DNA of 64,000 bases from contig NZ_BLPG01000001.1 of the NCBI RefSeq assembly GCF_011764445.1, positions 1,922,001-1,986,000 on the forward strand, read 5' to 3'. The notes under the pieces were generated by a model. It had not been told where the DNA came from and did no database searches. It was given only the letters and a program-made list of their open reading frames with translations. Positions 6,427 to 42,920 of this stretch are shown here, piece by piece. The position numbers were made by a program, and so were the translations under genes. The stretch comes from Phytohabitans rumicis. Lineage in GTDB: Bacteria; Actinomycetota; Actinomycetes; Mycobacteriales; Micromonosporaceae. The number at the start of each line of letters is the position of its first letter. Position 1 is the stretch's first letter.

Positions 6427-6508
6427 GTCGATCAAGGGATTCCGCGTCGATCAAGGGCAAACGGTCGTGGATCGGAGATCAAACCACGGCCATTCGCCCT
6501 TGATCGAC
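6427..6508. repeat. Palindromic repeat family B, copy B1
   Basis: A leading CGATCAAG box (GATC at 6430) is followed 19 nt later by the hairpin. The left arm is 6446-6470 (GTCGATCAAGGGCAAACG...), the 13-nt apex is atcggagatcaaa, and the right arm is 6484-6508. The 25-bp stem has three mismatches. It lies 3' of relA on the minus strand. Confidence 0.85.
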
Positions 6509-6547
6509 GGCATTAGCGGGCGGCACTAGCGGGCGGCACGAGAGGGG
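6509..6547. repeat. 13-bp tandem array x3 joining B1 to the relA stop
   Basis: Three units of 13 bp (ggcattagcgggc, ggcactagcgggc, ggcacgagagggg) begin directly after the B1 right arm and end one base before the relA stop codon at 6549. Confidence 0.75.
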
Positions 6548-6548
6548 G

Positions 6549-8979
6549 CTAGGCGCCGGAGGTTACGCGGTAGGCGTCGAAGACGCCGTCTACCTTGCGT
6601 ACGGCGGCCAGCAGGTGACCAAGGTGCTTCGGGTCGGCCATCTCGAACGAGAAGCGGCTCACCGCCACCCGGTCGCGCGTCGTGGTGACCGTCGCCGAGA
6701 GGATGTTGACCCGCTCGTCGGACAGCACCCGGGTCACGTCTGCCAGCAGCTTGTGCCGGTCCAGCGCCTCCACCTGGATCGCCACCAGGAACGTCGACGC
6801 CGACGTCGGCTTCCAGGTCACCTCGACGATGCGGTCGGGCTGTGCCTGGAGGTCTTCGGCGTTGGCGCAGTCGTCGCGGTGCACGCTGATCCCGCCGGAA
6901 CGGGTCACGAACCCGAACACCGCGTCACCCGGCACCGGCGTACAGCAGCGGGCCAGCTTGATCCAGACGTCGCTGACGCCCCGGACGACCACGCCCGGGT
7001 CGTGGGCCGCCTGACGCGCCCGCGGGGCCGGGTGGCGACCGCGGTCTCGGCGATGTCCTCGACCGCGCCCTCTTCGCCGCCGTACCCGGCGACCAGACGC
7101 TGGACCACCGACTGGGCGGACACCTGCGACTCGCCGACCGCCGCGTACAGCGAGGCGACGTCGGCCAGGTGCAGGTCGCGGGCGATCGCCATGAGCGCTT
7201 CGGTGGTGAGCATCCGGGTCAGCGGGAGGCCCTGCCGGCGCATCGCCTTGACGATCGACTCCTTGCCGGCCTCGATCGCCTCCTCGCGGCGCTCCTTGTT
7301 GAAGTACTGCCGGATCTTGGTGCGCGCCCGGGGCTCTTGACGAAGCCGAGCCAGTCCTGCGACGGGCCGGCCGTCTCGGACTTCGACGTGAAGATCTCGA
7401 TCACGTCGCCGTTGGACAGCGTCGACTCCAGCGGCACGAGCTTGCCGTTGACCCGGGCGCCGATGCACTTGTGCCCGACCTCGGTGTGTACGGCGTACGC
7501 GAAGTCGACCGGGGTGGAGCCCGTCGGCAGCGGGATGACGTCGCCCTTGGGGGTGAAGACGTACACCTCTTGGCTGGACAGGTCGAAGCGCAGCGCGTCC
7601 AGGAACTCGCTGGGGTCGCTGGCCTCACGCTGCCAGTCCAGCAGCTGCCGCAGCCACGTCATCTCGTCGATGTGGGCCGGCGGCCCGACGATCGTGGCGC
7701 CCTTTTGCTCCTTGTACTTCCAGTGCGCCGCGATGCCGAACTCGGCCGTCCGGTGCATGCTCACCGTGCGGATCTGCATCTCCACCGGCTTGCCGGTCGG
7801 GCCGATCACGGTGGTGTGCAGCGACTGGTACATGTTGAACTTCGGCATCGCGATGTAGTCCTTGAACCGGCCCGGCACGGGCTGCCAGTTCGCGTGGATC
7901 ACACCGAGTGCCGCGTAGCAGTCCCGGACCGTGTCGACCAGGATCCGCACGCCGATCAGGTCGTAGATGTCGTTGAAGTCCCGGCCCCGCACGATCATCT
8001 TCTGGTAGATCGAGTACAGGTGCTTGGGCCGCCCGGTCACCTCGGCCTTGATCTTCGCGGCCTTGAGGTCCATCTGGACCTTCTGCGTCACCTGGCGCAG
8101 CAGCGTGTCGCGCTGCGGCTGGTGCTCGCCGATCAGCCGGTTGATCTCCTCGAACCGCTTGGGGAACAGCGTGCCGAACGCGAGGTCTTCCAGCTCCCAC
8201 TTGATCGTGTTCATACCCAGGCGGTGGGCCAGCGGGGCCAGGATCTCCAGGGTCTCCTTGGCCTTCTGCTCCTGCTTGGGCCGGGGCAGGAAGGTCAGGG
8301 TGCGCATGTTGTGCAGCCGGTCGGCCAGCTTGATGACCAGCACCCGCGGGTCCTTGGCCATCGCGACGACCATCTTGCGGATGGTCTCCGCCTTGGCGGC
8401 GTCGCCCAGCTTGACCCGGTCGAGCTTGGTCACGCCGTCGACCAGCAGCGCGACCTCACCACCGAAGTCGGTACGCATCTCGTCGAGGCCGTAGTCGGTG
8501 TCCTCGATCGTGTCGTGCAGCAGCGCGGCCACCAGCGTGGTGGTGTCCATGCCCAGGTTGGCCAGGATCGTCGCCACCGCGAGCGGGTGCGTGATGTACG
8601 GGTCGCCGGACTTGCGGTACTGCCCGGAGTGCCAGCGCGCGGCCACGTCGAAGGCGCGCTGCAGCAGCCGCGCGTCCGCCTTGGGGTGGCAGGCGCGGTG
8701 GGTGGCGATCAGCGGCTCCAGGACCTCGCTGACCTGCGGGGTCTGCCAGGGCGCGTTGAAGCGGGCCAGCCTGGCCCGCACCCGGCGCCCGGTGGGCGCG
8801 CCGGCCAGCCCGAAGCCCGTCGCCGGCTCGGCCGACTCCTCACCAGGCTCCAGGTACGGTACGACCGCGGCGTCCGTACCAGTTTCAGAGGCGGCGGCAA
8901 CGACCTTCTCCTGGTCGGGCTGCGCCTCGCCAGTCGGGTGCACGCTGCCCTCCGCCGGACGGGCCACGTCCTGAGACAC
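6549..8979 (-). CDS. relA: Bifunctional (p)ppGpp synthetase/hydrolase RelA (two frameshifts in this sequence)
   Basis: Stringent-response enzyme making and degrading (p)ppGpp. Domains in order: N-terminal HD hydrolase ([22 protein letters not shown]), synthetase ([29 protein letters not shown]), TGS ([15 protein letters not shown]), and C-terminal helical and ACT regions ending in [10 protein letters not shown]. The frame breaks at gggg 7330-7333 and gggg 7024-7027. Restoring one base at each gives [17 protein letters not shown] and [17 protein letters not shown], and a protein of about 810 residues, normal for the family. The start is taken as GTG 8979 just after AGGAGG at 8983-8988, although the spacing is short; GTG 8991 is the alternative. 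apt lies upstream, as in M. tuberculosis. Confidence 0.9.
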
Positions 8980-9103
8980 CGGCCTCCTCACACTTCGCCG
9001 GGAATGAACCGACCGTATCCGGCCGGCACCACCCTCCGCTACCCGGGCCTCGCCGTTCCTGGCTGGTCGCGGACCGCAATCGTACCCGTCCGGCCTGCTC
9101 GAC

Positions 9104-9117
9104 GGCCCTTTCGGGCC
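9104..9117 (-). terminator. Short hairpin after apt
   Basis: GGCCC-gaaa-GGGCC on the minus strand, five bases beyond the apt stop. It is a 5-bp stem without a T-run, so only a weak terminator candidate. Confidence 0.4.
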
Positions 9118-9121
9118 ATCT

Positions 9122-9648
9122 TTAGACCGTCAACACCGCGTGTACGTCGCGCGGCGCGAGCCTCTGCCTCCCCGGCAGGAACGACAGCTCCAGCAACACC
9201 GTGAACCCGGCGATCCTTCCCCCGGCCCGCTCCACGAGATCGAGGGTGGTGGCCGCGGTACCCCGGTGGCCAGCACGTCGTCGACCACCAGCACCCGCTG
9301 GCCGGGCGTGAACGCGTCCCGGTGCAGTTCGAGGGCGGCCTCGCCGTACTCCAGGGCGTAGGAGGCGGCGTACGTCTCCCGGGGCAGCTTGCCGGCCTTG
9401 CGCACCGGCACCACCCCGATACCGGTGGCGTACGCGATCGCGGCGGCGATAACGAACCCGCGTGCCTCGATGCCGGCCACGACGTCGAACGAGTCCGCCC
9501 CGTGGTGCTCGACGATCCCGTCGATCACCTGCCGGAACGCCGGGCCGTCCGCGAACAGCGGGGTGAGGTCCTTGAACAGGATCCCCGCCTTCGGGAAGTC
9601 CGGGACGTCGACGATCCGGCTCGCGACGAGCTCGGCCAGGTCAGCCAC
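9122..9648 (-). CDS. apt: Adenine phosphoribosyltransferase (one frameshift in this sequence)
   Basis: Purine salvage: adenine plus PRPP to AMP. It starts at GTG 9648 ([22 protein letters not shown]) and contains the family stretch [13 protein letters not shown] and the PRPP-binding loop [12 protein letters not shown]. The frame breaks at cccc 9261-9264. Adding one base gives [33 protein letters not shown] and [13 protein letters not shown] to a TAA at 9122, about 175 residues. The start lies 4 bases after the secF stop, so it is the last gene of a secD-secF-apt run, as in M. tuberculosis. Confidence 0.88.
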
Positions 9649-9651
9649 GCC

Positions 9652-10830
9652 CTAGTGCCGCTTGCCGCGGCTGGGCCGGTTGCCCGGACGACCGCTCCGG
9701 TTGGCGGCCGGACGCTTGGCGGTCGGCCGTGCGCCCACCTTCGGGGCGGCGCCGGCCAGCGCGGCCACCTCCGCCTCGGAGCGCTCGGCCGGCTGCTTCG
9801 GCGACCGCGGCGCCTTCGGGGTGACGTCCCCGCGGGCGATGGCGGCGCGCCGGGCCAGCACCCGCTGGGAGTGCGCCTGGTACTTCGGCTCGTACCCCTT
9901 CAGCGTCGCCAGCACCGGCGTCGCGAAGAAGATCGACGAGTACACGGCGATGCCCATGCCGACGAAGAGCACCAGGCCCAGGTCGCGCAGCGTACCGGCG
10001 CCGAGCAGGAAGGCGCCGATGAAGAGCAGTCCGCCGACCGGCAACAGGGCGACCAGGCCGGTGTTGATCGAACGCATCAGCGTCTGATTGACCGCCAGGT
10101 TGGCCGCTTCCGTGTACGTCTGGGTGCTGCTCGCCGTGATGCCGCGGGTGTTCTCCTGCACCTTGTCGAACACGACCACGACGTCGTACAGGGCGAAACC
10201 GAGAATCGTGAGGAAGCCGATGACCGTCGACGGGGTGATCTCGAAGCCCACCAGCGAGTACACGCCCGCGGTGATGATCAGATCCAGGAAGAGCGACGAC
10301 ACGGCGGCGACCGCCATCCGCCACTCGAAGCGGACGACCAGGTAGAGCATCACGACCGCGATGAAGATGATCAGGCCGAGCAGCGCCCGGTCGGTGACCT
10401 GGCGGCCCCAGGACCCGCTGACCGCGCTGTTGCTGATCTCGTCGGCCGGGATCCCGAACGCCTCGACCAGGTCGGCCTTGACCGCCGCGGCCTGCTCGGG
10501 CGTCAACTCCGAGGTGCGGATCAGGTAGGTGCCGTCGCCGCCGCCGACCTGCTGCGCGGACGCCACCCCCAACTCCTCGCCGTCCGGGTTGGGCGCCTCG
10601 TCCAGCGCCTTCGCGACGGTGTCTTCGGCGTGCTGCAGCGTGCCGACCGAGGCCGGCACCTGGAACTCGTTGCCACCGGCGAAGTCGATGCCCAGTGTGA
10701 AGCCGCGCCAGAGGAAGCTGCTCAGCGCGATGACCACCGCGACGGCGGCCACCGTGAACCAGATCTTGCGGCGGCCGATGATGTTGAGGTCGGCCTGGCC
10801 CTTGTAGAGCCGGGTAGCGAGACCGCTCAT
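9652..10830 (-). CDS. secF: Protein translocase subunit SecF
   Basis: Inner-membrane partner of SecD that uses proton motive force to help SecYEG export. 392 residues with six membrane helices: one at the N-terminus (WFTVAAVAVVIALSSF), the characteristic IDFAGGNEFQVP after it, a periplasmic domain, then five helices with GFLTILGFALYDVVVVFDKV and SINTGLVALLPVGG. A basic Arg/Lys/Pro tail of about 70 residues follows, longer than in E. coli but common in actinobacteria. It starts at ATG 10830, 4 bases after the secD stop. Confidence 0.96.
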   Translation of the reverse strand: MSGLATRLYKGQADLNIIGRRKIWFTVAAVAVVIALSSFLWRGFTLGIDFAGGNEFQVPASVGTLQHAEDTVAKALDEAPNPDGEELGVASAQQVGGGDGTYLIRTSELTPEQAAAVKADLVEAFGIPADEISNSAVSGSWGRQVTDRALLGLIIFIAVVMLYLVVRFEWRMAVAAVSSLFLDLIITAGVYSLVGFEITPSTVIGFLTILGFALYDVVVVFDKVQENTRGITASSTQTYTEAANLAVNQTLMRSINTGLVALLPVGGLLFIGAFLLGAGTLRDLGLVLFVGMGIAVYSSIFFATPVLATLKGYEPKYQAHSQRVLARRAAIARGDVTPKAPRSPKQPAERSEAEVAALAGAAPKVGARPTAKRPAANRSGRPGNRPSRGKRH

Positions 10831-10834
10831 GTGG

Positions 10835-12730
10835 TCACGCCTCCTTCACGCGCGGGGTGCGGGGCTTGGCCGGCTCGGTGTCGGTGTCCTTCTCCAGGAC
10901 CCGGCCGAGCCCACTGACCCGCGGCGACAGGAACGCGCGGGTACGGGCGAACATCGTCATGATCGGATGCCGGAACAGGAACACCACGACCAGGTCGAGG
11001 ATGGTGGCGAGGCCGAGGGCGAACGCGAAGCCCTTCACCGTGCCGACCGACACGATGTAGAGCACCACGGCCGCCATGATCGTGATCGCGTTGGCCGAGA
11101 TGATCGTGCGGCGGGCCCGTACCCACGCCCGTGGCACGGCGCTGCGCGCACTGCGGCCCTCGCGTATCTCGTCCTTGAGCCGCTCGAAGTAGATGACGAA
11201 CGAGTCGGCGGCCACACCCAGCGAGACGATGAACCCGGAGATGCCGGCCAGGTTGAGGGTGTAGCCGATCTGCCGGCCCAGCACGATCAGCGCGCCGAAC
11301 ACCAGCAGGCCGGACAGGATCAGGCTGAGGAAGATCACCGTGCCGAGCAGGCGGTAGTAGAAGAACGCGTAGACGATGACCAGCAGCATGCCGATGCCGG
11401 CGGCCAGCAGACCCGCCTGCAGGTACTCGGTGCCCAGCGTCGCGGAGACGTTCTCGACCGCGGACTGGGTGAACGTCAGCGGCAGCGCGCCGTAGCGCAG
11501 CTTGCTGGCCAGCTCGTTGGCCGTCTTGGAGGTGAAGTTGCCGGTGATCTGGGAGTCGCCGGTCAGCACGCCCTGGATCTCCGGAGACGAGATGATCTCG
11601 TTGTCCAGCACCACCGCGACCCGGCACTTGCCCTGGTCGCCGAGGGCCGACGCGTCACACGCCCCGCCCTCGTTGTTGAACGCCTCGCGGGTCAGCGCGG
11701 TCCACTTCTCCTGCCCGCTGCCGGTGAAGTCGAGCGAGACGACCCAGCCGCCGCCCTGCTGGTCGAGCACGCCGCTCGCGTCGCTGACGTCGGTGCCCTC
11801 CACCTTGGCCACGTCGAGCAGCATCTTCTCCGGGCCCTCGCAGGCCACCGCCTGCTTGGAGATGTCCCGGATCGAGCCGGGCTGGCGCAGGTTGAGCTGC
11901 GCGCAGCCGATCGTCGGCACGTTGAACTGCATGGCCGGATCGAGGGAGTCGACCTCGGCGGGGGACAGCTTGCCGAACGCCTCAAGCGTCGTGAGCGCCG
12001 TCGGGTCGGTGCTCAGGTCCGGCGGGGCCTGCAGCGCGCTGGCCGCGGCCCAGGCCGCGGCGCCGACCTTCTTCTGCACCTCGGCGCGGATCTGCTCCCG
12101 GGTCAGGGTGGTGCCCGGCGCGACCGGGGTCGCGCTGGCCGACGGGCTCGGGCTCGCCGACGCGGAGCCGCTGGGCGTCGGGGTGGGCGTCGCCGCCACG
12201 CCACCGCCCTGGCCGCCGGGGCTCGCCGACGCGCTGGGGCTCACCGCGGCGCTGCCGCTCGCCGTCGCCGACGGCGTCGGCGTGGCACTGCCGGACGCGC
12301 TGGGCGTCGGGGTCGCCGCGACCGCCCCCGAGCTGTCCGCCGTGACCTTCAGGACCTTACGGAACCGCAGCTCCGCGGCCTGCCCCAGGTTGGCCAGCGC
12401 GTCGTCGCTCTTGCCGGCCAGCGAGACGACGATGTTCCTGTCGCCTTCGGTGACCACCTCGGCCTCGGACACGCCGTACGCGTTGGCCCGGCTCTCGATG
12501 ATCTGCCGCGCCTCTTCGAGCTGGTCGGCCTGGGGCGCCTGGCCCCCCGTGGTCGTCGCCGTGTACGTCACCCGGCTGCCGCCGATGAGGTCCAGGCCGA
12601 GCTTGGGCTCCAGCCGATTCTTGAGGCTTCCGTCGCCGCCCAGGAAGACGATCAGGTAGAGGATGACGAAGATGAGGCCGAGCACGGCGAGCTGCCGCCC
12701 GGGGCGCATCTGTCCCTGAGGTGGTGCCAC
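10835..12730 (-). CDS. secD: Protein translocase subunit SecD
   Basis: Partner of SecF. 631 residues. The N-terminal helix (LAVLGLIFVILYLIVFLGG) is followed by LGLDLIGGSRVTY (family D1 motif). The P1 head domain is interrupted by a Ser/Ala/Pro/Thr/Gly-rich low-complexity stretch at about residues 135-205. Then come LRYGALPLTFT and five helices with GFIVSLGVAADSFVIYFERLKDE. The low-complexity insert is longer than in most SecD proteins. It starts at GTG 12730. Upstream yajC completes the usual yajC-secD-secF cluster. Confidence 0.95.
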   Translation of the reverse strand: MAPPQGQMRPGRQLAVLGLIFVILYLIVFLGGDGSLKNRLEPKLGLDLIGGSRVTYTATTTGGQAPQADQLEEARQIIESRANAYGVSEAEVVTEGDRNIVVSLAGKSDDALANLGQAAELRFRKVLKVTADSSGAVAATPTPSASGSATPTPSATASGSAAVSPSASASPGGQGGGVAATPTPTPSGSASASPSPSASATPVAPGTTLTREQIRAEVQKKVGAAAWAAASALQAPPDLSTDPTALTTLEAFGKLSPAEVDSLDPAMQFNVPTIGCAQLNLRQPGSIRDISKQAVACEGPEKMLLDVAKVEGTDVSDASGVLDQQGGGWVVSLDFTGSGQEKWTALTREAFNNEGGACDASALGDQGKCRVAVVLDNEIISSPEIQGVLTGDSQITGNFTSKTANELASKLRYGALPLTFTQSAVENVSATLGTEYLQAGLLAAGIGMLLVIVYAFFYYRLLGTVIFLSLILSGLLVFGALIVLGRQIGYTLNLAGISGFIVSLGVAADSFVIYFERLKDEIREGRSARSAVPRAWVRARRTIISANAITIMAAVVLYIVSVGTVKGFAFALGLATILDLVVVFLFRHPIMTMFARTRAFLSPRVSGLGRVLEKDTDTEPAKPRTPRVKEA

Positions 12731-12843
12731 GGCTGTCGGGTCTCCTGTGCGGTCGGCCGCAGGGTACGTGCGGCGGGGTCGTGCGCCGGCGGGTGCCGGC
12801 AGCGGGCAGGGGTACCGGCGAAGTGGGCGCCGCCGGGGTGAAG

Positions 12844-13188
12844 CTAGTCCTTGACGTCCGCCTCGTCTGCGGCCTTCTCCACGGGTACGGCGACCGGCTC
12901 CGCCTTGGTGACCACGCGGGCGATCGCCGGGCGGGCGTAGCGGGTGTGCACGCCGGGGGCGACCTCAAGGGTGACCGTCTCGTTCTCGACGCTCACGACG
13001 GTGCCGTAGAGCCCGCCGATGGTGACAACCTCGGCGCCCGGACCAATCGTGTTCTGCATCTGCTCGGCCTCGCGGCGCCGCTTCTGCTGGGGCCGGATCA
13101 TCATGAAGTACATGACGCCGAAGAGCAGGACGATCATAAGAATCGGCATGAAGCTGCCGGCGCCGCCGGAGCTCGCTGCAAGAAACAC
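12844..13188 (-). CDS. yajC: Preprotein translocase subunit YajC
   Basis: Small single-span membrane protein accompanying SecDF, about 114 residues. The membrane helix MPILMIVLLFGVMYFMM is followed by the family motif IRPQQKRRRE and the domain TIGPGAEVVTIGGLYGTVVS. An acidic tail ends the protein. The start is GTG 13188 (VFLAASSGGAGS) because GGAAGG lies 9 bases upstream; the reading frame stays open further upstream but without family similarity. Confidence 0.92.
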   Translation of the reverse strand: MFLAASSGGAGSFMPILMIVLLFGVMYFMMIRPQQKRRREAEQMQNTIGPGAEVVTIGGLYGTVVSVENETVTLEVAPGVHTRYARPAIARVVTKAEPVAVPVEKAADEADVKD

Positions 13189-13314
13189 GGTAAGTGACCT
13201 TCCATTTGACCTGCGTTGCGGTACGGAGGCACCGGAGCGCAGGCGTAACCTCACGTCCTGTGCGGACCGCGGCGAGTCTAGTCGCTGTGACTGAGAACGC
13301 CTATACAGGGCTGC

Positions 13315-14369
<1,055 letters not shown>

Positions 14370-14373
<4 letters not shown>

Positions 14374-15493: not shown

Positions 15494-15562
15494 GCCGCCC
15501 CCTCCCATACGTATGTTCGACACCCTACTGGGTCGGGGCTGGCGGCCGGCATGCCGACACGC

Positions 15563-16177: not shown

Positions 16178-16188
16178 GGGATGCGATC

Positions 16189-17756: not shown

Positions 17757-17772
17757 TCCGCGTGCTCCCCCG

Positions 17773-19787: not shown

Positions 19788-19844
19788 TGATCATGAAGTT
19801 ATCCCCCGCGACACGCCGGTCTACGGGGGATAACTTCATGATCA
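19788..19844. repeat. Palindromic repeat family A, copy A2 (bidirectional terminator candidate)
   Basis: A perfect 21-bp stem starts TGATCATGAAGTTA. The apex reads GGCGTGTCGCGG in the reverse orientation to A1. It fills the space between two convergent stop codons: GH12 ends 6 bases to the left and dctA ends 4 bases to the right. Confidence 0.88.
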
Positions 19845-24804: not shown

Positions 24805-24868
24805 GCGGTGATCATGAAGTTAGCGTCAGGGCAAGCGCTCTCCCCCACGCTAACCTCATGATCACCGC
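24805..24868. repeat. Palindromic repeat family A, copy A3
   Basis: 22-bp stem starting GCGGTGATCATGAAG with one mismatch and a 20-nt apex. Unlike A1 and A2 the apex lacks GGCGTGT. First of four palindromes in the 609-base gene-free stretch 24691-25299, which otherwise holds a promoter and unstructured DNA. Confidence 0.82.
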
Positions 24869-25130: not shown

Positions 25131-25212
25131 GCCGATCAAGGATTTCTACGTCGATCAAGGGCAAACGGCCGCGGATTGGAGATCAAACCACGACCGTTTG
25201 CCCTTGATCGAC
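25131..25212. repeat. Palindromic repeat family B, copy B2
   Basis: A leading CGATCAAG box (GATC at 25134) is followed 19 nt later by the hairpin: left arm 25150-25174, apex attggagatcaaa, right arm 25188-25212. Two mismatches in 25 bp. It lies 3' of yebC (minus strand). Confidence 0.85.
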
Positions 25213-25260
25213 GCACGAGAGGGAGCACGCACGAGAGCGCGCACGCACGAGAGGGAGCGC
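25213..25260. repeat. 16-bp tandem array x3 next to B2
   Basis: Units gcacgagagggagcac, gcacgagagcgcgcac and gcacgagagggagcgc start directly after the B2 right arm. They are followed by purine-rich DNA up to the yebC stop at 25300. Confidence 0.75.
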
Positions 25261-25299
25261 GCGGAGGGCGCAGGGAGGAAGAGCGAGGAAGGACCAAGG

Positions 25300-26049
<750 letters not shown>

Positions 26050-33114: not shown

Positions 33115-33132
33115 CCCGTCCCGTCTCTCCAA

Positions 33133-33193
33133 GTTGATCAGGGAGTTTGTCTGGCGTGTCGCGGCGCGCCGCTAGACGAACTCCCTGATCAAC
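33133..33193. repeat. Palindromic repeat family C, copy C1 (between convergent genes)
   Basis: A 24-bp stem starts GTTGATCAGGGAGTT, has two G-T-type mismatches, and its apex contains GGCGTGTCGCGG. The right arm (33170-33193) is the 3' end of the aldo/keto reductase gene and encodes its last residues LIREFV plus the stop. Confidence 0.88.
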
Positions 33194-34146: not shown

Positions 34147-34253
34147 GCGTGACACGGTTCCAGTTCGAGCACGCTGGAAGTCAAGCGCCGCCCCCGCAAC
34201 CGGGACGCCAGCAAGATCCGGACAAAACTCCGCGGGTGTGACCCGACCGCCCC

Positions 34254-34362
34254 GCCGATCAAGGAAAACCGCGTCGATCAAGGGCAAACGGTCGTGGTTT
34301 GGAGATCAAAGCACGACCATATGCCCTTGATCGACGCGAGCCGCGAGCTGCCCTTGATCGAC
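34254..34362. repeat. Palindromic repeat family B, copy B3
   Basis: A leading CGATCAAG box (GATC at 34257) is 19 nt from the hairpin: left arm 34273-34297, apex tttggagatcaaa, right arm 34311-34335 with three mismatches. An extra CCTTGATCGACGCG half-box follows 27 nt further right, breaking the 19-nt rule. 3' of the HIT gene (minus strand). The stretch 34147-34417 holds nothing else recognisable. Confidence 0.83.
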
Positions 34363-34417
34363 GCGGAGAGCGGGCGCCGGCCGAGCGACGCGGGCCAAGC
34401 GCGGGCACGGGCGGAGG

Positions 34418-34909
34418 TTAGTCCTCGGGCCAGGCGTCTATGAGGAGGTCGCGTGTGTCGGTGAGGAGTTGGGGGAGGACCTTGGTTTGGCCGACCACGG
34501 GCATGAAGTTGCTGTCGCCGCCCCACCGGGGCACGACGTGTTGGTGCAGGTGGGCGGCGATGCCGGCGCCGGCGACCGAGCCCTGGTTCATCCCGATGTT
34601 GAAGCCGTGCGCGCCGCTGACCTGCCGGATCACCCGCATCGCCGTCTGCGTGAAGTGCGCCAGCTCGGCCGTCTCATCCGCGTCGATGTCGGTGTAGTCG
34701 GGCAGGTGCCGGTACGGGCACACGAGCAGGTGCCCCGGGTTGTACGGGTACAGGTTGAGCACCGCGTAGACGAGCTTGCCCCGGGCGACCACCAGGCTGC
34801 CGTCCTCCAGGGTCGGAGCGACGCAGAAGGGGCACCCGGGCGGCTGGTTCTGCCCGGCGATGTACGTCATCCGATGCGGCGTCCACAGCCGCTCCAACCC
34901 GTCCGTCAC
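34418..34909 (-). CDS. HIT-family hydrolase/AP4A phosphorylase-like
   Basis: 163 residues. Histidine triad HLHQHVVPRW near residue 125 and a Zn-type CPFC pair near residue 26. Position after thrS matches Rv2613c, reported as a diadenosine tetraphosphate phosphorylase, which suggests removal of AP4A made by aminoacyl-tRNA synthetases. GTG 34909, nine bases after the thrS stop, so co-transcribed. Confidence 0.88.
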   Translation of the reverse strand: MTDGLERLWTPHRMTYIAGQNQPPGCPFCVAPTLEDGSLVVARGKLVYAVLNLYPYNPGHLLVCPYRHLPDYTDIDADETAELAHFTQTAMRVIRQVSGAHGFNIGMNQGSVAGAGIAAHLHQHVVPRWGGDSNFMPVVGQTKVLPQLLTDTRDLLIDAWPED

Positions 34910-34918
34910 ACCCTGATC

Positions 34919-36937: not shown

Positions 36938-37014
36938 GGCGATCTCCTCAGTGTGTTCAGCAGTCGGTAACCGCTGCCATGCTATAGAGCCGCGCCGGAA
37001 GTGCCGCGCAGCGG

Positions 37015-37020
37015 TAGATT
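37015..37020 (+). promoter_or_regulatory. -10 element TAGATT for the CFA-synthase-like gene
   Basis: TAGATT ends six bases before GTG 37027, leaderless signature; no ribosome site is present. Confidence 0.5.
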
Positions 37021-37026
37021 GCCGGT

Positions 37027-38184
37027 GTGGCAGGCACCGATATGATCGCCGCGCTCCAGCGCCGCTACCAGGAATTCTTCGCCTCGCGACCGGCCGTGCC
37101 GTTCGCGGTGGCCGCGGTGGGCGGTGCGGCCCACCGGTTTGGCTCAGGGGACCCCCTCTTCACGATCACCGTCAAGGACACGCGCGGGGCGCGGGCGCTG
37201 ACCGGGCTGGACCAGCTCGGCATCGCCGTGGCGTACCTACAAGGCTGGCTGGACGTCGACGGCGACCTGGTCGCGGCGCTCAAGATGCGCGAGTTCTTCA
37301 AGGACTTCCACCCGATCGCGTTCCTGTCCCGGTTCACCCCGGCGGCCCTGTGGCGGGGCCGCAAGGAGGACGACCGCCGGGCCATCTCGCACCACTACGA
37401 CGAGGACTCGGAGTTCTTCCTGACGTTCCTCGACGAGCGGCACCGCTGCTACACCGAGGGCGTGTTCGCGGCCGACGACGAGCGGCTCGAGGACGCGATG
37501 ACCCGCAAGATGGACCTCGCGATGGACGCGATCGGGGTCAAGCCCGGCGACCGGGTGCTGGAGGTGGGCGGCGGCTGGGGCGCGTTCTCCGAGCACGCCG
37601 CGCGGCGCGGGATCGACGTCACCACCACGACCCTGTCGAAGGAGTCCGAGCGCTACCTGACCGAGCTGTTCGCCCGGGAGAAACTCCCCGTGACGGTGGT
37701 CCGGCAGCACATCTTCGGCTACCGGAGCCCGCAGCCCTTCGACGCGATCGTCAACATGGGCGTCACCGAGCACCTGCCCGACTACCGCACCACGCTGCGC
37801 AAGTACGCCGAGTTGCTGCGCCCCGGCGGCCGCGTCTACCTCGACGCCCTCGCCATGCGCCGCAAGCACCTGGCCTCGACGTTCATGAAGCGCTACATCT
37901 ACCCGGGCAACTCGGCGCCGCTGCTGCTGCACCAGTACCTGCGGCAGGTCTCCCGGTCGCCGTTCGAGCTGCTCAGCGTCGACGACGACCGGCACAACTA
38001 CTTCCTGACCTGCCGGGAGTGGGCCAAGCGCCTGGACGGTGCCCGCGAGGAGATCGTGGCCCGCTGGGGCGAGCCGCTGTACCGCCGCTTCCGCCTGTTC
38101 CTGTGGGGCTCGGCGGCGGGCTTCGACACCGGCATGGTCCAGGCGTACCGCTGGGTCCTGCGCCTGCCGCCCGCCACCGCCTGA
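37027..38184 (+). CDS. Cyclopropane-fatty-acyl-phospholipid synthase family methyltransferase
   Basis: 385 residues. SAM site [18 protein letters not shown] near residue 180, followed by the family features [26 protein letters not shown] (bicarbonate/acid site equivalent) and [12 protein letters not shown]. An N-terminal lipid-binding region of about 150 residues precedes the Rossmann domain. Products could be cyclopropane, methyl-branched or other mid-chain modified lipids; sequence alone does not decide. Divergent from thrS. Confidence 0.85.
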
Positions 38185-38253
38185 TCGGTCGCCGCCCCCA
38201 CCGGCGCTGGCCTGCCCCCGCCGGCCGGCCGACGCCGCCGGCGGCGTCGGCGC

Positions 38254-38354
38254 GTCGATCAAGGACTTCCTCGCCGATCAAGGGCGAACGGTCGTGCTTT
38301 GATCTCCAAACCACGACCGTTTGCCCTTGATCGACGCGCAAAGCCTTGATCGGC
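38254..38354. repeat. Palindromic repeat family B, copy B4 (inverted, complete)
   Basis: Half-boxes lie on both sides, each 19 nt from the hairpin (GATC at 38257, 38276, 38329, 38348). The left arm is 38273-38297 and the right arm 38311-38335. The apex tttgatctccaaa is the reverse complement of the B3 apex, so this copy is inverted. It lies 3' of the glycosidase gene. Together with the array it fills most of 38185-38573. Confidence 0.88.
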
Positions 38355-38356
38355 GC

Positions 38357-38532
38357 GGGCCGCGCGGAGACCGGGCCGCGCGGAGACCGGGCCGCGCGGA
38401 GACCGGGCCGCGCGGAGACCGGGCCGCGCGGAGACCGGGCCGCGCGGAGACCGGGCCGCGCGGAGACCGGGCCGCGCGGAGACCGGGCCGCGCGGAGACC
38501 GGGCCGCGCGGAGACCGGGCCGCGCGGAGACC
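38357..38532. repeat. 16-bp tandem array, 11 perfect copies
   Basis: Unit gggccgcgcggagacc repeated 11 times without change (176 bp), starting two bases after B4. The period is not a multiple of three, so frames read through it only as artefacts. Perfect identity implies recent expansion. It ends about 40 bases before the glycosidase stop. Confidence 0.95.
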
Positions 38533-38573
38533 GCCACGCGAGGGCGGCGGCGGGCGAGGGCGGCGGCGCGGGG

Positions 38574-39935
38574 TTAGTCGGCGGCGAGCAGGTCCAAGGC
38601 GAGCGCGGCCGTCCAGCTGAAGGCGGCCGCGCCGATCCCGGCGCCGTCGATCGGGTCGAAGTACTCGTAGCAGCCGCCCCGGCGGATCACGTCGAGCATC
38701 GCGGTGCGCAGGGTGCCGGCCGCCGCCGCGTGCCCGTGCGTCCGCAGGCCGCGCCACAGCAGCCAGTTCACATTGATCCAGACCGGGCCGCGCCAGTACC
38801 GCAGCCGGTCGAAGTCCGGCGCCGTGCGGTCGTACGAGGGCACCGGCGGGCCGGCGTACCCGAACCGGCCCGAACCAGCCTCGGCCAGCAACGCGGCCAC
38901 CCGGTCCTCGGGCAGCCCGGGGAGGATCAGCGGCAGCAGGCCGCTGACGCAGCGGGCCGGGGTCAGCTCCCCGGTGCGTACGTCGCGGGCGTGGAACATG
39001 CCCGTCGCCGGGTCGAGGAGCCGGTCGAGCAGCGCCTTGGTGATGTGCTCGGCCCGGTCCCGGTGCGGCGCCGGGTCGGCGCCGACCACCTCGGCGATGT
39101 CGGCGAGGGCGTGCTCGGCGGCGCCCAGGATCGCGTTGAACGCCGGGCACTCCACCAGGAACAGGTGCCGCTGCGCCAGCCCGGCGTCGGCGTACCCGCT
39201 GTCCCGGTACGCGGCGGCGAGCGCGATGTACCGGGCGTAGTCGGTGTCGGTGGGCCGGTGCGAGGAGTCCGCGACGTTGGTGTCCTGCCGGCGGTGGCGC
39301 CGCAGCAGGCTCAGGTCGGCCGGCACCGCGGCGAGCGCCCGGTCCCAGGCGGGGCTGTTGTCCAGGCCCGACTCCCACGGGTGCACGATGCTGGCCAGGC
39401 CCGCTCCGCCCACGTCGCGCGCGCCGAACAGGTACTCCTGCTGGCGGACCAGCCGCGGGTAGAGCCAGGTCAGCTCCGCGCGGGCGGCCGGGCGGTCGGT
39501 CGCCCGCCGGTAGACCTCCCACGCGGCGACGGCGTGCACCGGCGGCTGGACGATGCCGGTGGTCAGCCCGGCGAGCCGGCCGGGCACCGGCGGGGCGTCC
39601 CAGAACGCCGGGCCGGGAAAGTAGTCGCGCTCGGAGACGTTCGGGTCGAACACGATGTGCGGCACCCGGCCGTCGGCCCACTGCGCGGCGAAGAGGCTGC
39701 GCAGATCCCACCAGGCCCGCTCGGGCGCGTGGTGCGCCAGACCCACCGCGATGAACGCGGCGTCCCAGCTCCACTGGTGCGGATACAGGGCCCGGGACGG
39801 CACCGTGTGGTCCCGTTCCCAGTTGGCGTCGAGGACCTCCGCGGCGCGTTGCCGCAGGTCGGCCTCTGTCAGCGCGGCGCCGGCCTGCGGGGCCGGCGTC
39901 GGGGGTACGTGGGTGGCGCGGTTCACTCGGACCAT
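38574..39935 (-). CDS. MGH1/GH63-like glycoside hydrolase ((alpha/alpha)6 barrel)
   Basis: About 453 residues. LYPHQWSWDAAFIAVGL, RVPHIVFDPNVSERDYFPGP, and the C-terminal RYWRGPVWINVNWLLWRGL with GCYEYFDPIDGAGIG are typical of trehalase/glucosidase-I/mannosylglycerate hydrolase-like enzymes. No signal peptide, so it acts in the cytoplasm. Substrate may be a compatible-solute glycoside; unproven. ATG 39935 chosen because the upstream frame is antisense to the regulator; ribosome site is weak. Confidence 0.78.
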   Translation of the reverse strand: MVRVNRATHVPPTPAPQAGAALTEADLRQRAAEVLDANWERDHTVPSRALYPHQWSWDAAFIAVGLAHHAPERAWWDLRSLFAAQWADGRVPHIVFDPNVSERDYFPGPAFWDAPPVPGRLAGLTTGIVQPPVHAVAAWEVYRRATDRPAARAELTWLYPRLVRQQEYLFGARDVGGAGLASIVHPWESGLDNSPAWDRALAAVPADLSLLRRHRRQDTNVADSSHRPTDTDYARYIALAAAYRDSGYADAGLAQRHLFLVECPAFNAILGAAEHALADIAEVVGADPAPHRDRAEHITKALLDRLLDPATGMFHARDVRTGELTPARCVSGLLPLILPGLPEDRVAALLAEAGSGRFGYAGPPVPSYDRTAPDFDRLRYWRGPVWINVNWLLWRGLRTHGHAAAAGTLRTAMLDVIRRGGCYEYFDPIDGAGIGAAAFSWTAALALDLLAAD

Positions 39936-40067
39936 GCTGGCAGGTACCCCCTGGCTGGCCAGATATGGCACGCCGCCATCCCGATTATCGGTACGAAGGG
40001 GGATCAGCAAAGCCCGCTTTGTCCACATACTGCGAAACCGGAAAGGACGCCGCCTTGCCAAGGGCAG

Positions 40068-40073
40068 TACCGT
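40068..40073 (+). promoter_or_regulatory. -10 element TACCGT for the OmpR-type regulator
   Basis: TACCGT ends six bases before ATG 40080; leaderless signature. Confidence 0.45.
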
Positions 40074-40079
40074 CTTCGC

Positions 40080-40769
40080 ATGGCCACCGTGCTCCTGGTC
40101 GAGGATGACCATGTCGTGCGCGGCGCGATGCTGCGTTCGCTGGCCGACCGAGGGCATGCCGTGCACGCGGTCGGGACGGCGCTCGACGCGCTGCGCCGGG
40201 TCGCTTCGGAGACCCCTGACCTCGTAGTACTCGACCTCGGCCTGCCCGATCTGGACGGCGCCGACGCGCTGCGGATGCTGCGCGGCATCACCGACATCCC
40301 GATCATCATCGCCACCGCCCGCGACGACGAGCAGGCGATCGTCCGGCTGTTACGGGCCGGTGCCGACGACTACATGGTCAAGCCGTTCACCGGTGCCCAC
40401 CTGGACGCGCGCATCACCAGCGTGCTGCGCCGCGCCGGCCGGGCCAGCCGTACCGTGCAGCCGGCCGTACACGAGGTCGGCGGCCTGAAGGTCGACGTCG
40501 GCGAGCGCAGCGCGCAACTGGACGGCGTACCCCTGGCATTGACCCGCAAGGAATTCGATCTGCTGGCCTATCTGGCGGCGCGACCCGGCCGCGTAGTTTC
40601 TCGCCGGGAGCTGTTGGAGGAGGTATGGCGGCAACCGTCGGTAGGCGAGGACCAGACCATCGACGTGCATCTGTACTGGCTACGCCGCAAGCTGGGCGAG
40701 TCCGCGGCGAAGCCTCGCTACCTGCGCACCGTGCGGGGGGTCGGCTTCCGGCTGGTGGCACCGGACTAA
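40080..40769 (+). CDS. OmpR/PhoB-family response regulator
   Basis: 229 residues. Receiver domain with LLVEDDHVV, phospho-acceptor in LVVLDLGLPDLDG, Thr in IATARDDEQ and Lys in YMVKPFTG. Winged helix ends in the usual TIDVHLYWLRRKLGE and LRTVRGVGFRLVAPD. A histidine kinase gene follows directly. Divergent from the glycosidase gene, 144 bases apart, which could be a target. Confidence 0.93.
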   Translation: MATVLLVEDDHVVRGAMLRSLADRGHAVHAVGTALDALRRVASETPDLVVLDLGLPDLDGADALRMLRGITDIPIIIATARDDEQAIVRLLRAGADDYMVKPFTGAHLDARITSVLRRAGRASRTVQPAVHEVGGLKVDVGERSAQLDGVPLALTRKEFDLLAYLAARPGRVVSRRELLEEVWRQPSVGEDQTIDVHLYWLRRKLGESAAKPRYLRTVRGVGFRLVAPD

Positions 40770-42178
40770 GGCAGGCCCACGCGTACGTCACCGCCGCCCT
40801 CACCACCATCGCGGCGCTGGCCTTCATGATCCCGCTCGGGCTGGAGCAGCGGGCCGACGCCCGCGACGAGGCCATCGCCGAGGCGCAGCGCCGCAGCGCC
40901 ACGGTCGCGGGCGCGCTCACCGTCGCGTCCGGCAACGACGTGGTACGCCGTGCCGTGCAGGCCGCCGGACCCGGTGGGCAGGCTCCCGTCGTACACGGGA
41001 TGGATGCCGCGACCGACGGCGCGAAAGCGACGCCGGAGGACGTGGCGGAGGCGGCCAGCGGCACCAAGTCGGTCGTCAACGACGTGGACGGCGGCGTGGT
41101 CTACCTGCAGCCGGTACGACTACAGAGCGCCACCGCGGTGATCGAGGTGTTCGTGCCCGCGGGCGACCTCGGCGGCGCCAACTGGTGGCTGCTGATCGGC
41201 CTCACCCTGGGCCTGGTGATCGCGTCGGTGATCGTGGTGGACCGGCTGGCCTCGGTGGCGGTCGGGTCGGCGCGGTCGCTGGTGCAGGCCGCGATGGCGG
41301 TCGGCGACGGCGACCTGGCCGTACGCGTGCAGCCCAGCGGCCCGCGCGAGCTGGCCGAGGCCGGCTTCGCGTTCAACCGGATGGCGGACAAGCTGGTCAC
41401 CTCGCGCAGCAACGAGCGCGAACTCGTCGCCGACCTCTCGCACCGGCTGCGCACCCCGCTGACCGTGCTGCGGCTGGACGCCGACGCCCTGGACTCGGAC
41501 GACACGAGCGTGGGCCAGTTCAGCGCCGCCGAACTGGACCGGCGCCGCACCATCCGGCGGATCCGGCAGGCGATCGTCACCCTCGAAGGCGAGGTCGACG
41601 TGCTCATCAAGACCAGCCGCAAGGTGGTCGAGCAGGCGGCCGAGCCCGAAGAGAGCGTGTGCGACGCCAGCGAGGTGGTCCGCGACCGGATGGTCTTCTG
41701 GTCCGCGCTGGCCAGCGACCAGCAGCGCCCCAACCAGGTGCTCGGCGCGCACACCCGGATCCCGGTCCCGCTACCACGCGCCGAACTGGCCGCGGCGCTG
41801 GACGCCGTGCTGGGCAACGTGTTCCGCTACACGCCGCAGGGCGCCGCGTTCGAGGTGGCGATCTCGCGCCGGGACGGCTACGTGGCGCTGCGCGTCGACG
41901 ACGCCGGCCCCGGCATCGCCAACCCCGACCGGGCGCTTGCCCGGGGCATGAGCGACCGCGGCTCGACCGGCCTCGGCCTCGACATCGCCCGCCGGGCGGC
42001 CCAGCAGGCACGCGGCTCGGTCAGCATCGACCGGGCCCAGCTCGGCGGCGCCAGCGTCATCATGCTGCTCGCCGACGCCGAGGCCACCCCACGCACGGTC
42101 AGCCGCTTCGGCCTGGTGGGCCGGCTAGCTAGGGAGCCTGGATCCCGGCGGTGGCCGCGGCAGCGGTCCAATCCGTAG
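40766..42178 (+). CDS. Sensor histidine kinase (start codon unresolved)
   Basis: About 470 residues. First helix ALTTIAALAFMIPLGLEQ, extracytoplasmic segment, second helix WWLLIGLTLGLVIASVIVV, HAMP, phospho-acceptor His in ELVADLSHRLRTPLTVL, then HATPase with LGNVFRYTPQG, DDAGPGI and STGLGLDIARR. Paired with the preceding regulator. The conserved N-terminus RQAHAYVTAALTT begins right after the regulator stop, but the codon before it is CTA; the nearest in-frame start codons are far upstream (40625, inside the regulator) or inside helix 1. A local sequence error or a non-standard start is possible. The stop lies in a hairpin. Confidence 0.85.
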   Translation, partial: LRQAHAYVTAALTTIAALAFMIPLGLEQRADARDEAIAEAQRRSATVAGALTVASGNDVVRRAVQAAGPGGQAPVVHGMDAATDGAKATPEDVAEAASGTKSVVNDVDGGVVYLQPVRLQSATAVIEVFVPAGDLGGANWWLLIGLTLGLVIASVIVVDRLASVAVGSARSLVQAAMAVGDGDLAVRVQPSGPRELAEAGFAFNRMADKLVTSRSNERELVADLSHRLRTPLTVLRLDADALDSDDTSVGQFSAAELDRRRTIRRIRQAIVTLEGEVDVLIKTSRKVVEQAAEPEESVCDASEVVRDRMVFWSALASDQQRPNQVLGAHTRIPVPLPRAELAAALDAVLGNVFRYTPQGAAFEVAISRRDGYVALRVDDAGPGIANPDRALARGMSDRGSTGLGLDIARRAAQQARGSVSIDRAQLGGASVIMLLADAEATPRTVSRFGLVGRLAREPGSRRWPRQRSNP

Positions 42179-42215
42179 CTGGGCGCGGAGCGATCAGATA
42201 CGGATTGGACCGCTG
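42161..42215. terminator. Hairpin overlapping the kinase stop codon
   Basis: 17-bp perfect stem CAGCGGTCCAATCCGTA / TACGGATTGGACCGCTG with a 21-nt loop. The left arm contains the last codons and part of the TAG stop (42176-42178). A third partial copy, cggcagcggtcca, lies at about 42252-42264. No T-run. Confidence 0.65.
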
Positions 42216-42488
42216 TCCGGGGCCGAAGCGAGCGAAGCGAGCCAGCAGGCACAGCCACGGCAGCGGTCCACAGGAGACCGATAAGTCTTCCTTAGGTCTG
42301 AGTTAACGGGGCGTAGTCGGCGCCGGCAGGGTGGCAGCATGGTCATCGATCCCATCCGGTTCCATCGGACCACCGCCCGCAGTATGTCCACCCACCCCGG
42401 TCCGGTGGGGCTCTTGCGCGCGCGGCGGGAAACGGTCCCCCAACCCAGATCCCGCCGCGCGCCCACCCCTGTGAGGAGGTCACCCGCG
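42216..42488. other. Gene-free leader before a small membrane protein
   Basis: Holds the partial third arm copy of the preceding hairpin and an AT-richer stretch (agtcttccttaggtctgagttaa, about 42283-42305) that could carry a promoter. The end contains GAGGAGG, the ribosome site of the next gene. No coding sequence is supported. Confidence 0.5.
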
Positions 42489-42617
42489 GTGGAGGCGGAC
42501 CAGGAGGAGCGCACCCGCTCCATTCCGAGGCGCCGCCTCATCCGCTGGGCCGCCATCATCGCGGGCGTGATCCTGGCCGTACTGGCCTGCTGGCAAGACC
42601 CCCTCTACGCCATCTAA
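42489..42617 (+). CDS. Small single-span membrane protein (42 residues)
   Basis: GTG 42489 lies nine bases after AGGAGG. The product begins VEADQEERTRSIPRRRLIRW, a charged segment with an Arg cluster, and continues with one helix AAIIAGVILAVLACW and a short end QDPLYAI. The orientation is probably N-in. It follows the two-component system in the same direction. No known family recognised; could be a small regulator of the kinase or an envelope protein. Confidence 0.6.
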   Translation: MEADQEERTRSIPRRRLIRWAAIIAGVILAVLACWQDPLYAI

Positions 42618-42638
42618 CGGCCGCGCCGAGCCCTCCCC

Positions 42639-42698
42639 GTTGATCAGGGACCAGCTCCGCGTGTCGTCGGCGTGCCGGGAGAGCCGCTCCCTGATCAC
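42639..42698. repeat. Palindromic repeat family C, copy C2
   Basis: The outer stem starts GTTGATCAGGGA and is matched by TCCCTGATCAC. The inner part pairs imperfectly. The apex carries GCGTGTCGTCGG, a variant of the family motif. It begins 21 bases after the stop of the small membrane protein. Confidence 0.8.
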
Positions 42699-42755
42699 CG
42701 CCGGTGCGTCGAACGCGCGCAGGAGCGGCGAGGGCGCAGACTCCTCCCACCGAGC

Positions 42756-42857
42756 GTCGATCAAGGATTTGCGCGTCGATCAAGGGCAAACGGTCGTGGT
42801 TTAGAGATCAAAGCACGACCGTTTGCCCTTGATCGACGCGGAGACCTTTGATCGGCG
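42756..42857. repeat. Palindromic repeat family B, copy B5 (complete)
   Basis: GATC cores lie at 42759, 42778, 42831 and 42850, with 19-nt steps on both sides. Left arm 42775-42799, apex tttagagatcaaa, right arm 42813-42837, near-perfect. 3' of the deaminase gene (minus strand). Confidence 0.9.
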
Positions 42858-42920
42858 CGAAGACGGCGCGAAGACGGCGCGGACCGGCGCGAACAGCGCG
42901 GATCGACGCGGACCAGCGCG
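42854..42920. repeat. Imperfect 10-11 bp tandem array next to B5
   Basis: It begins with two identical ggcgcgaagac units, then drifting ggcgcggacc, ggcgcgaaca and similar copies, up to about 22 bases before the deaminase stop at 42942. Together with C2 and B5 it accounts for the 324-base gene-free stretch. Confidence 0.6.

Follow-up and report, generated by a model that had tools for sequence, protein, structure and literature searches.

The window, i.e. the whole stretch of 64,000 nucleotides of Phytohabitans rumicis DNA that was analysed, contains five copies of a palindromic element (B1 to B5; collectively B), and all of the copies that an earlier sequence-only reading had claimed were found where it placed them. 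B1 (6427–6509, plus strand; 101.3 bits, E 4.9e-28) consists of an outer box (6429–6437) and a palindrome whose inner GATC is at 6449 and whose mirror GATC ends at 6505. A spacer (6510–6548, minus strand) lies between it and the stop codon of a gene call containing an ACT domain (6549–6992, minus strand); behind this call is a RelA/SpoT-domain gene call (7219–8979), and the two are possibly one gene that was split by the gene finder. B2 (25131–25213, plus strand; 103.8 bits) likewise has an outer box (25133–25141) and a palindrome, and the spacer that extends from it to the stop codon of the YebC/TACO1 gene (spacer 25214–25299, gene 25300–26049, both minus strand) contains a short 16-nt tandem array. 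B3 (34254–34336, plus strand; 99.9 bits), with its outer box at 34256–34264, is separated by the spacer 34337–34417 (minus strand) from the stop codon of a HIT-domain gene (34418–34909, minus strand); an extra CCTTGATCG is present nearby at 34352, its distance from the right arm being 27 nt instead of 19 nt. The gap containing B3 was found to be without B in genomes G001, G002, G003, and G004.

The two remaining copies carry boxes on both sides of the palindrome. B4 (38254–38354, minus strand; 111.1 bits on that strand), which is inverted relative to the other four as had been noted, follows the stop codon of a CMAS-family methyltransferase gene (37042–38184, plus strand) across the spacer 38185–38253 (plus strand), and its boxes are phased at 19 nt on each side. 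In B5 (42756–42856, plus strand; 114.3 bits), the left box and a right box with one mismatch are also both at 19 nt, and the spacer 42857–42941 (minus strand) leads to the stop codon of an adenosine deaminase gene (42942–43946, minus strand). All five copies have the box that lies 19 nt outward of the left-arm GATC, and B4 and B5 have its mirrored counterpart as well, both as originally described. The 25-bp hairpin is also present, but its arms are imperfect, with 21–23 of 24 positions matching in the five copies; similarly, the supposedly conserved 13-nt apex is exact in B3 and in the reverse-read B4 but differs at 1–2 positions in B1, B2, and B5. The window contains the motif CGATCAAGG 18 times, compared to 0.34 expected from dinucleotide shuffles, and 17 of these occurrences are within the five elements. 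No match to B was obtained in Rfam at the gathering score, where the sole match in the window was a cobalamin riboswitch (63912–64000).

Family size, box phasing and hairpin conservation

B1–B5 are members of one dispersed family that extends beyond the window. In 80 systematic 20-kb stretches (1.6 Mb) of the same genome, whose assembly (G000) is stated as 96% complete, 88 copies were identified, from which about 590 copies per genome are extrapolated. Of these 88 copies, 86 had no mismatches in the two 8-mers and the other two had one. A search of the same 1.6 Mb for decayed relics, which tolerated spacings of 44–62 and as many as 5 mismatches across both 8-mers, revealed no convincing extra copy.

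Freely varying box spacing across the genome had been named in the sequence-only reading as a refutation of its element model, and beyond the window no such free variation was seen. Among 100 copies, a box at the 19-nt phase was present on the left side in 97 and on the right side in 49, and none of the other phases between 14 and 25 was observed in more than one copy. Same-strand pairs of GATCAAGG within 150 nt of each other (864 kb, including the window) were 19 nt apart 66 times and 38 nt apart four times, and the remaining pairs showed seven other distances, each represented by one pair. As a control for this phase, an 18-nt-spaced pattern matched 8 sites in the whole genome when as many as 2 mismatches were tolerated, two of these matches being exact.

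Within the hairpin, 31 of 61 positions are invariant in the 100 copies, which nevertheless comprise 96 distinct hairpins; the variable positions vary independently and the same positions are degenerate in both arms. The palindrome is conserved over its whole 57 nt, and the fixed part of its apex across the 100 copies is GAGATC. The predicted folding energies of the 101-nt B1–B5 sequences range from -52 to -68 kcal/mol, with z scores between -6.7 and -13.1. The arms show no covariation within the genome (93.3% paired versus 93.2% after shuffling, 46 copies), which indicates that pairing alone is not what keeps these letters fixed. These observations bear upon a first alternative, viz. that B is a plain hairpin terminator that was repeated by chance duplication and involves no sequence-specific factor. 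The strong predicted hairpin and the placement at gene ends described below would be expected of such a terminator; however, neither the invariant positions nor the phased boxes are needed for a hairpin, and the absence of within-genome covariation is also contrary to it, so that we consider this explanation highly improbable.

A coding origin of B was also considered. By hand count, 7 of the 12 variable positions that are independent share a single 3-nt phase (p about 0.07), and the reading frame of that phase has a stop inside only one of the 100 copies; however, the frame closes at a median of 84 nt downstream of GATC, and A or T predominates at its third positions despite the 72% GC content of the genome. 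Based upon this closure and third-position composition, a coding origin was rejected.

Placement at gene ends

The sequence-only reading overlooked the main context of these elements, namely their placement at gene ends, the C-rich approach to them and the other palindrome that a related species sometimes has in these places. The placement counts, all of which are based upon gene calls from a simple purpose-made gene finder and not upon annotation, show that none of the 100 copies is inside a predicted gene. In the systematic sample, 35 of 88 copies were in convergent gaps, for which gap length alone predicts 16.0 (p 2e-6), and divergent gaps contained 7 copies against a prediction of 24.4 (p 4e-6). 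Of the 100 copies, 60 have a facing stop codon no more than 100 nt away and 72 no more than 200 nt away. In convergent gaps the nearer stop codon was on the right side of the element in 36 of 45 cases (p 3e-5), the outer box usually being on the side opposite to it, and in tandem gaps a weak orientation preference (29 versus 19) was observed.

C-rich tracts are present on both approaches to B. The right-hand stop-to-stem spacers of 11–200 nt (n = 58, including the right box where present) contain 50.6% C and 27.6% G, as against 33.7% C and 33.4% G in 322 control gene 3' flanks (80 nt, from gaps of at least 100 nt without B). At least three T residues within the 8 nt following the stem were found in 14 of 100 copies in the sense of the right gene and in one of 100 in the sense of the left gene, which indicates that B is not a classical intrinsic terminator. 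A stable stem after stop codons and a C-rich, G-poor approach are both expected of a tail-less (I-shaped) or Rho-linked 3' end, and both are seen here, the stem by prediction. In gaps of 40–300 nt without B, another strong hairpin was found in 39% of 56 convergent gaps, in 5.6% of the first 90 tandem gaps and in none of the first 90 divergent gaps, nor in shuffled sequences.

Comparison across the genus and the question of mobility

Of the six genomes of the genus that were compared, B is abundant in only two species. In the sister carrier lineage all 99 scored candidates were positive, and the four other congeners have only 1–4 matches per genome at E values up to 0.001. The G001 set of 43 matches includes one false positive of a loose filter (L162 11562); copy L205, near a contig end, was missed by the scan and caught by reading, and L156 10869 was counted among the comparable intervals. 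Eight of 11 such intervals were not common to the two carriers, and where B was present in one carrier only, the other carrier has another hairpin in four intervals and none by eye in four; hence, intervals that lack B do not always have a terminator-like structure instead. A slot is conserved behind an NlpC/P60 gene (Pfam): all six species have a GATC-ended palindrome there, at most about 75 nt from the stop codon, and it is B-like in four of them, B in one and unrelated in the species of the window.

The arm changes between the two carriers are compensated, with 36 double-changed cells versus 21.9 after shuffling (0 of 500 shuffles; 15 + 15 copies), an excess that amounts, in essence, to a single two-species comparison. 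This result is of importance for a second alternative, in which B is a BIME-like binding array occupied by a nucleoid or supercoiling protein, with a dimer on the palindrome and further subunits on the 19-bp boxes, termination being a by-product or absent. Positive supercoils are expected to gather between convergent genes, where B is placed, and the invariant box bases, the independent variation of the degenerate positions in both arms and the nearly absolute 19-bp phase are all in keeping with such an array. However, the conserved 57-nt palindrome exceeds the need of one dimer, the changes between species are in compensated pairs and the C-rich tracts on both approaches are not predicted by it. 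The earlier suggestion of binding by a protein, here a putative one, fits the strong base-level constraint beyond what pairing needs; we regard a supercoiling array as improbable.

The other earlier suggestion, that B represents the ends of a mobile element, has only indirect support, from the abundance of the family in just two species and the intervals that these do not share. A third alternative is related to it, viz. that B is a REPIN-like or MITE-like selfish repeat whose boxes are read by a putative transposase and whose bias towards gene ends reflects selection against insertions in genes and promoters. The high copy number in one species, its abundance in the sister and near absence from four congeners, the intervals not shared between carriers, and B3, which resembles a gain, all favour mobility. 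Against this, target duplications of 3–9 nt showed no excess over shuffled flanks in 100 copies, so that this mark of a MITE of a DDE transposon is lacking, and no Y1/RAYT gene (Y1_Tnp, PF01797) was detected in this genome (assembly 96% complete) or five congeners by a search that was positive in 5 of the 14 genomes used as controls. Decayed relics are absent from the 1.6-Mb sample, and the sites are bimodal, either invariant or freely variable, which neutral decay after amplification would not produce. We therefore think a selfish repeat unlikely. For the Y2 transposase (PF04986, IS91-like) there was no match in the genome, but the control genomes were without a match too. Complementarity of the outer flanks, which would suggest that B had inserted into an older hairpin's loop, was not clearly above that of shuffled flanks in 46 copies (6.09 versus 5.83, sd 0.22); in 100 copies it was slightly above, with 4 of 200 shuffles as high and 6 copies scoring at least 10 compared to 3.5 expected. 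Such insertion is possible for a few copies.

Interpretation and likeness to known systems

Based upon these sequence comparisons, we give about even chances to the explanation that B is a dispersed 3'-end palindrome serving as a bidirectional transcription terminator or maker of mRNA 3' ends; the 7 of 100 copies in divergent gaps count against it. RNA polymerase, after passing the stop codon, would transcribe a short C-rich, G-poor stretch, which may act as a Rho-loading tract, followed by the predicted 25-bp hairpin, which lacks a trailing U-tract. Transcription would then be stopped by Rho, or by B acting as a tail-less terminator, with the hairpin shielding the 3' end, and due to its palindromy B could do this for each of two convergent genes. 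As the half-site bases are much more constrained than pairing needs and the box is at a fixed 19 bp, we propose that a candidate sequence-specific factor, which probably reads B through CGATCAAGG, is also involved. The whole B set differs in its letters between the two species, and the copies would have been spread and homogenised within each species by some copying process. In a broader and rather doubtful form of this proposal, gene ends throughout the Micromonosporaceae would be recognised by a sequence-specific factor through their GATC-ended palindromes and 19-bp-phased boxes, and the factor would stop RNA polymerase or fix 3' ends there; as its preferred sequence shifts, whole genomes would swap their several hundred sites and terminators would evolve in concert, in the manner of sites for one DNA-reading protein.

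B may thus mark where the transcription of genes stops, with letters that have been rewritten genome-wide between two related species. This bears on how high-GC actinomycetes terminate transcripts without U-tracts, and on how dispersed palindromes lacking RAYT spread and yet stay uniform. Several hundred replicates per genome, the fixed box spacing, a second species with different letters and four copy-poor congeners make both questions directly testable.

In the open-licence literature (titles and abstract openings), no published name for a B-like element was found, Micromonosporaceae palindromic repeats included, nor any paper on REPIN and RAYT in actinobacteria, and the matches listed for GATCAAGG and TTGATCAAGAGG as text included no paper with a relevant title. 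The main text of PMC3733652 contains no mention of Salinispora, Micromonospora, Frankia or Actinobacteria. Our best reading is that B is REP-like, not a REPIN. As in the REP/BIME/REPIN systems (Bertels and Rainey 2011, PMC3116915; Di Nocera et al. 2013, PMC3733652), B comprises hundreds of short, species-specific extragenic palindromes that lie close to the 3' ends of genes and in convergent gaps, and a high-copy inverted pair forms one long hairpin (100 copies; predicted for B1–B5). However, B has one 25-bp stem and outer boxes phased at 19 nt, in place of the two short REPs of a REPIN, and it lacks a Y1/RAYT gene in the six genomes; moreover, its halves are not each imperfect palindromes, as four arm segments, taken only from B3 and B5, gave folds that were not superior to those of shuffles (z 0.73, -0.33, 0.11, and 0.82). 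Most B arms have CGTC before the ATC of the GATC foot, which is reminiscent of the CGTC-tagged REPs, for which no dedicated transposase is known according to the available part of PMC3733652, and T is present at that CGTC position in 83 of 100 left arms. In those REPs the tag is unpaired, with a stem of 8–9 bp and a loop of 4–5 nt, whereas in B these bases are inside the paired 25-bp stem.

The I-shaped, U-lacking ends of Streptomyces clavuligerus, also a high-GC actinomycete, are similar to B in having a stable stem and no U-tract, and bidirectional transcript ends have been reported for this species (PMC8269248); the available portion of that paper does not describe them as a repeated, box-bearing family, and for B the terminator role is our inference. 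Lastly, DNA uptake sequences in inverted pairs (see PMC1590033) resemble B in consisting of a short genome-wide box that partly occurs in inverted pairs folding as stem-loops, and B differs from them in being about 100 bp in length and of fixed architecture.

B copy number and anatomy

The B element, a 25-bp hairpin with GATC-footed arms and an outer box 19 nt outside the arm GATC, represents a high-copy family whose boxes keep a fixed 19-nt distance. Individual bases of the element are tightly constrained, and the copies are placed at gene ends with C-rich approaches. All five copies placed in the window by the sequence-only reading (B1-B5, starting at 6427, 25131, 34254, 38254 and 42756, with B4 inverted) are present at those coordinates. 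Of the 18 occurrences of the motif CGATCAAGG in the window, against an expectation of 0.34, 17 are within the five elements; a lone box at 51649-51657 has no surrounding palindrome. Directly adjoining B4 is a tandem array (38356-38533) in which a 16-bp unit is perfectly repeated 11.1 times, and shorter 10-19 bp arrays adjoin B1, B2 and B5.

The family was counted in 1.6 Mb of the Phytohabitans rumicis genome (G000; 10.7 Mb, three contigs), sampled systematically as 80 stretches of 20 kb, using a finder based upon a 53-nt GATC-to-GATC spacing, no more than three mismatches in two 8-mers and at least 16 of 24 matching arm positions. This census yielded 88 palindromes (55 per Mb), corresponding by extrapolation to about 590 copies in the whole genome, and 38 of the 80 stretches contained none. 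Together with the five window copies and seven from stretches chosen for synteny, 100 copies were analysed, of which 98 have no mismatch in the 8-mers and two have one. When the 1.6 Mb was rescanned far more permissively, with spacings of 44-62 and as many as five mismatches allowed, no further convincing B-like copy with a GAGATC apex appeared, and decayed relics are therefore missing from this sample; a single copy with a 52-nt spacing was met outside it (stretch L157, position 4028). A second GATCAAGG-footed family of this genome, GTGATCAAGGCGTCC..GGACGCCTTGATCAC (L041 3267, L046 2252, L053 7284, L064 12682), has a GATC spacing of 46 nt or shorter and is without a phased box.

When oriented by the apex GGAGATCAA, the element consists of the outer box GTCGATCAAGG, seven variable nucleotides and the palindrome, which has the arm consensus CG(T/C)CGATCAAGGGC(A/G)(A/T)A(C/T)GG(T/C)CGTGG followed by its mirror; about half of the copies also have a mirrored outer box on the right. 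With one mismatch allowed, 97/100 copies have a left-hand box at phase 19 and 49/100 a right-hand one, and phases 14-18 and 20-25 are occupied in at most 1/100 on either side; two or three phased units are present on one side in 11/100. In an 864-kb sample, 66 pairs of same-strand boxes had a spacing of 19; for facing boxes, spacings of 53, 72, 91, 110 and 46 were seen in 44, 62, 22, 4 and 3 pairs, respectively, and every other spacing observed occurred in one pair. That a protein reads these boxes is, like the manner in which the copies spread, something that we infer. Two copies (L076 16949 and L051 1679) are enclosed by a longer GC-rich inverted repeat in the flanking DNA, which gives them the appearance of sitting within an older hairpin's loop.

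Placement at gene ends

Based upon gene calls from a simple purpose-made finder (87% coding), none of the 100 copies is inside a predicted gene, and the gaps that contain them are convergent in 45 cases, tandem in 48 and divergent in 7. For the 88 systematic copies, 35 are in convergent gaps versus 16.0 expected by gap length, 7 in divergent gaps versus 24.4 expected, and 46 in tandem gaps. Within convergent gaps the right-hand stop codon is nearer in 36 of 45 cases (medians 76 nt on the right versus 254 nt on the left), so that the nearly constant box is usually behind the hairpin when seen from the nearer gene. The right-hand stop-to-B spacers (n = 58) contain 50.6% C and 27.6% G and the left-hand spacers (n = 25) 44.6% and 32.8%, the corresponding values for gene 3' flanks without B (n = 322) being 33.7% and 33.4%. 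The predicted folding energies of B1-B5 are -52 to -68 kcal/mol, and a U-tract behind the stem is mostly absent (at least three T in 8 nt in only 14/100 and 1/100 copies in the two senses). Transcripts would be expected to end at B, possibly by Rho or tail-less termination.

Among B-less gaps of 40-300 nt, another strong hairpin was present in 39% of 56 convergent gaps, in 5.6% of the first 90 tandem gaps and in 0 of the first 90 divergent gaps; shuffles gave none. The 1.6-Mb sample also contains 20 GATC-footed palindromes that do not start with GATCAAGG, one of them a B variant, and six control tetramers as feet gave 1-5 palindromes each, the tetramer frequencies themselves differing widely. 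Five non-B GATC-footed palindromes of the GATCATGA.. and GATCAGGG.. kinds in the window (6180-6233, 19789-19843, 24810-24863, 33136-33190 and 42642-42696) are probably other terminator-like families. By the purpose-made gene calls, four of them lie 7-52 nt past a plus-strand stop; for the palindrome at 24810, the nearest facing stop is 436 nt away.

Arm constraint and turnover between species

Of 61 hairpin positions, 31 are invariant in the 100 copies, 38 show no more than 2% change and 16 vary at 10-50%, and 96 distinct hairpin sequences are found. Four of the 120 variable-site pairs tested gave p < 4e-4, each involving positions one or two apart. Variable sites are mirrored between the arms yet independent, with 93.3% pairing versus 93.2% after right-arm shuffling (46 copies). 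The constraint thus looks like that of two half-sites each held by sequence, rather than of a stem held by pairing alone, and the variation does not look like the product of neutral decay after a recent burst. By a hand count in the 100 copies, 7 of 12 independent variable hairpin positions fall on one 3-nt phase; a coding origin of the hairpin was tested and is unsupported.

Over a longer time scale, the palindromy is maintained, and B has undergone species-wide re-lettering in two species. The arm core in P. rumicis is GG(T/C)CG in both arms of 99/100 copies (the remaining copy has GGTTG in one arm). Of 43 matches in the sister carrier (G001), 33 have GCACG as the core of both arms, nine more are one base off in one arm and the last is a false positive. 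One arm pair is CG in one carrier species and GC in the other, as compared in 15 of 46 aligned G000 copies and 15 of 42 true G001 copies; the double-changed cells exceeded all 500 shuffles, relatedness remaining in this control and the comparison being essentially one two-species contrast.

Of 11 intervals comparable between these species, B is present in both at three (one, behind yebC, judged from a single flank) and in only one at eight. Read by eye, the species without B has another GATC-footed palindrome at three of the eight, a different hairpin at one and no hairpin at four (B3, L156 10869, L126 8105 and L157 9126), two of which include gene-like sequence. In the four further congeners (G002-G005), B is absent from all orthologous B1-B5 gaps read (four species for B1, three for each other); unrelated hairpins occur in some, e.g., B1, and the B5 gap of G003 contains two lone boxes 249 nt apart. 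Other repeats were read by eye in the B1-orthologous gap of L117, L120 and L112 (G003, G004 and G002) and in L116 at B5, one being a repeated palindrome, GATCGTGG(T/A)..CCACGATC, and the other a repeat that includes GGAGGGTGAGGCCGCGGGAGCA. Behind an NlpC/P60 gene, a GATC-ended palindrome is present in 6/6 species of the genus compared. In G002-G005 it is a hairpin resembling B and accompanied by a box at 19 nt, G001 has one of its typical copies there, and the G000 palindrome (GATCTTGG) is unrelated. Paired changes, e.g., A-T to G-C, are seen among the four orthologous hairpins.

Relatives and comparison with known systems

A covariance model built from 46 copies gave a positive score to each of the 99 candidates scored in G000 and in G001; G002-G005 gave only 1-3 matches at E <= 0.001, and 1-4 with laxer filters, both strands of one palindrome counting as two. 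The model matched 12 of 41 genomes, those outside the genus being G014 (48 matches), G015 (25), G013 (10), G008 (3), G010 (1) and G012 (1). Within the GTDB r220 contig collection, the sister carrier (20 stretches) was the one other species to show the exact box-spacing pattern, in a search that may leave out records of the window's own genome. An unrooted tree based upon nine genes from a single region (8,686 alignment columns) grouped G000 with G001 with support of 1.0. In the G001 draft, almost certainly Micromonospora sp. CPCC 205371, several contigs among L089-L108 end inside a B copy, and hence the repeat may break short-read assemblies. The palindromes of other genera have their own sequences and the same kind of stem foot (e.g., GATCAAGGGAAG, GATCTAGGG and GATCATGGAG). 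Their loci, not a random sample because they were picked by the covariance model, are between convergent genes in 17/27 cases and between divergent genes in 2/27. An outer GATC at 19 nt is present in 6/31 relatives' loci of this model-biased sample, four of the six being one orthologous site.

Rfam gave no match for B; a cobalamin riboswitch is present at 63912-64000, cut by the window end. Target duplication was not found among the 100 copies, and no Y1 transposase was detected in six genomes of the genus; a Y2 search gave no match, the control genomes being equally silent. The arm segments of B3 and B5, the two copies so examined, do not fold alone and by that test are not REP doublets. B behaves like a REP/BIME-type 3'-end palindrome and fails two REPIN-defining tests; for this reason, it is not filed as a REPIN.
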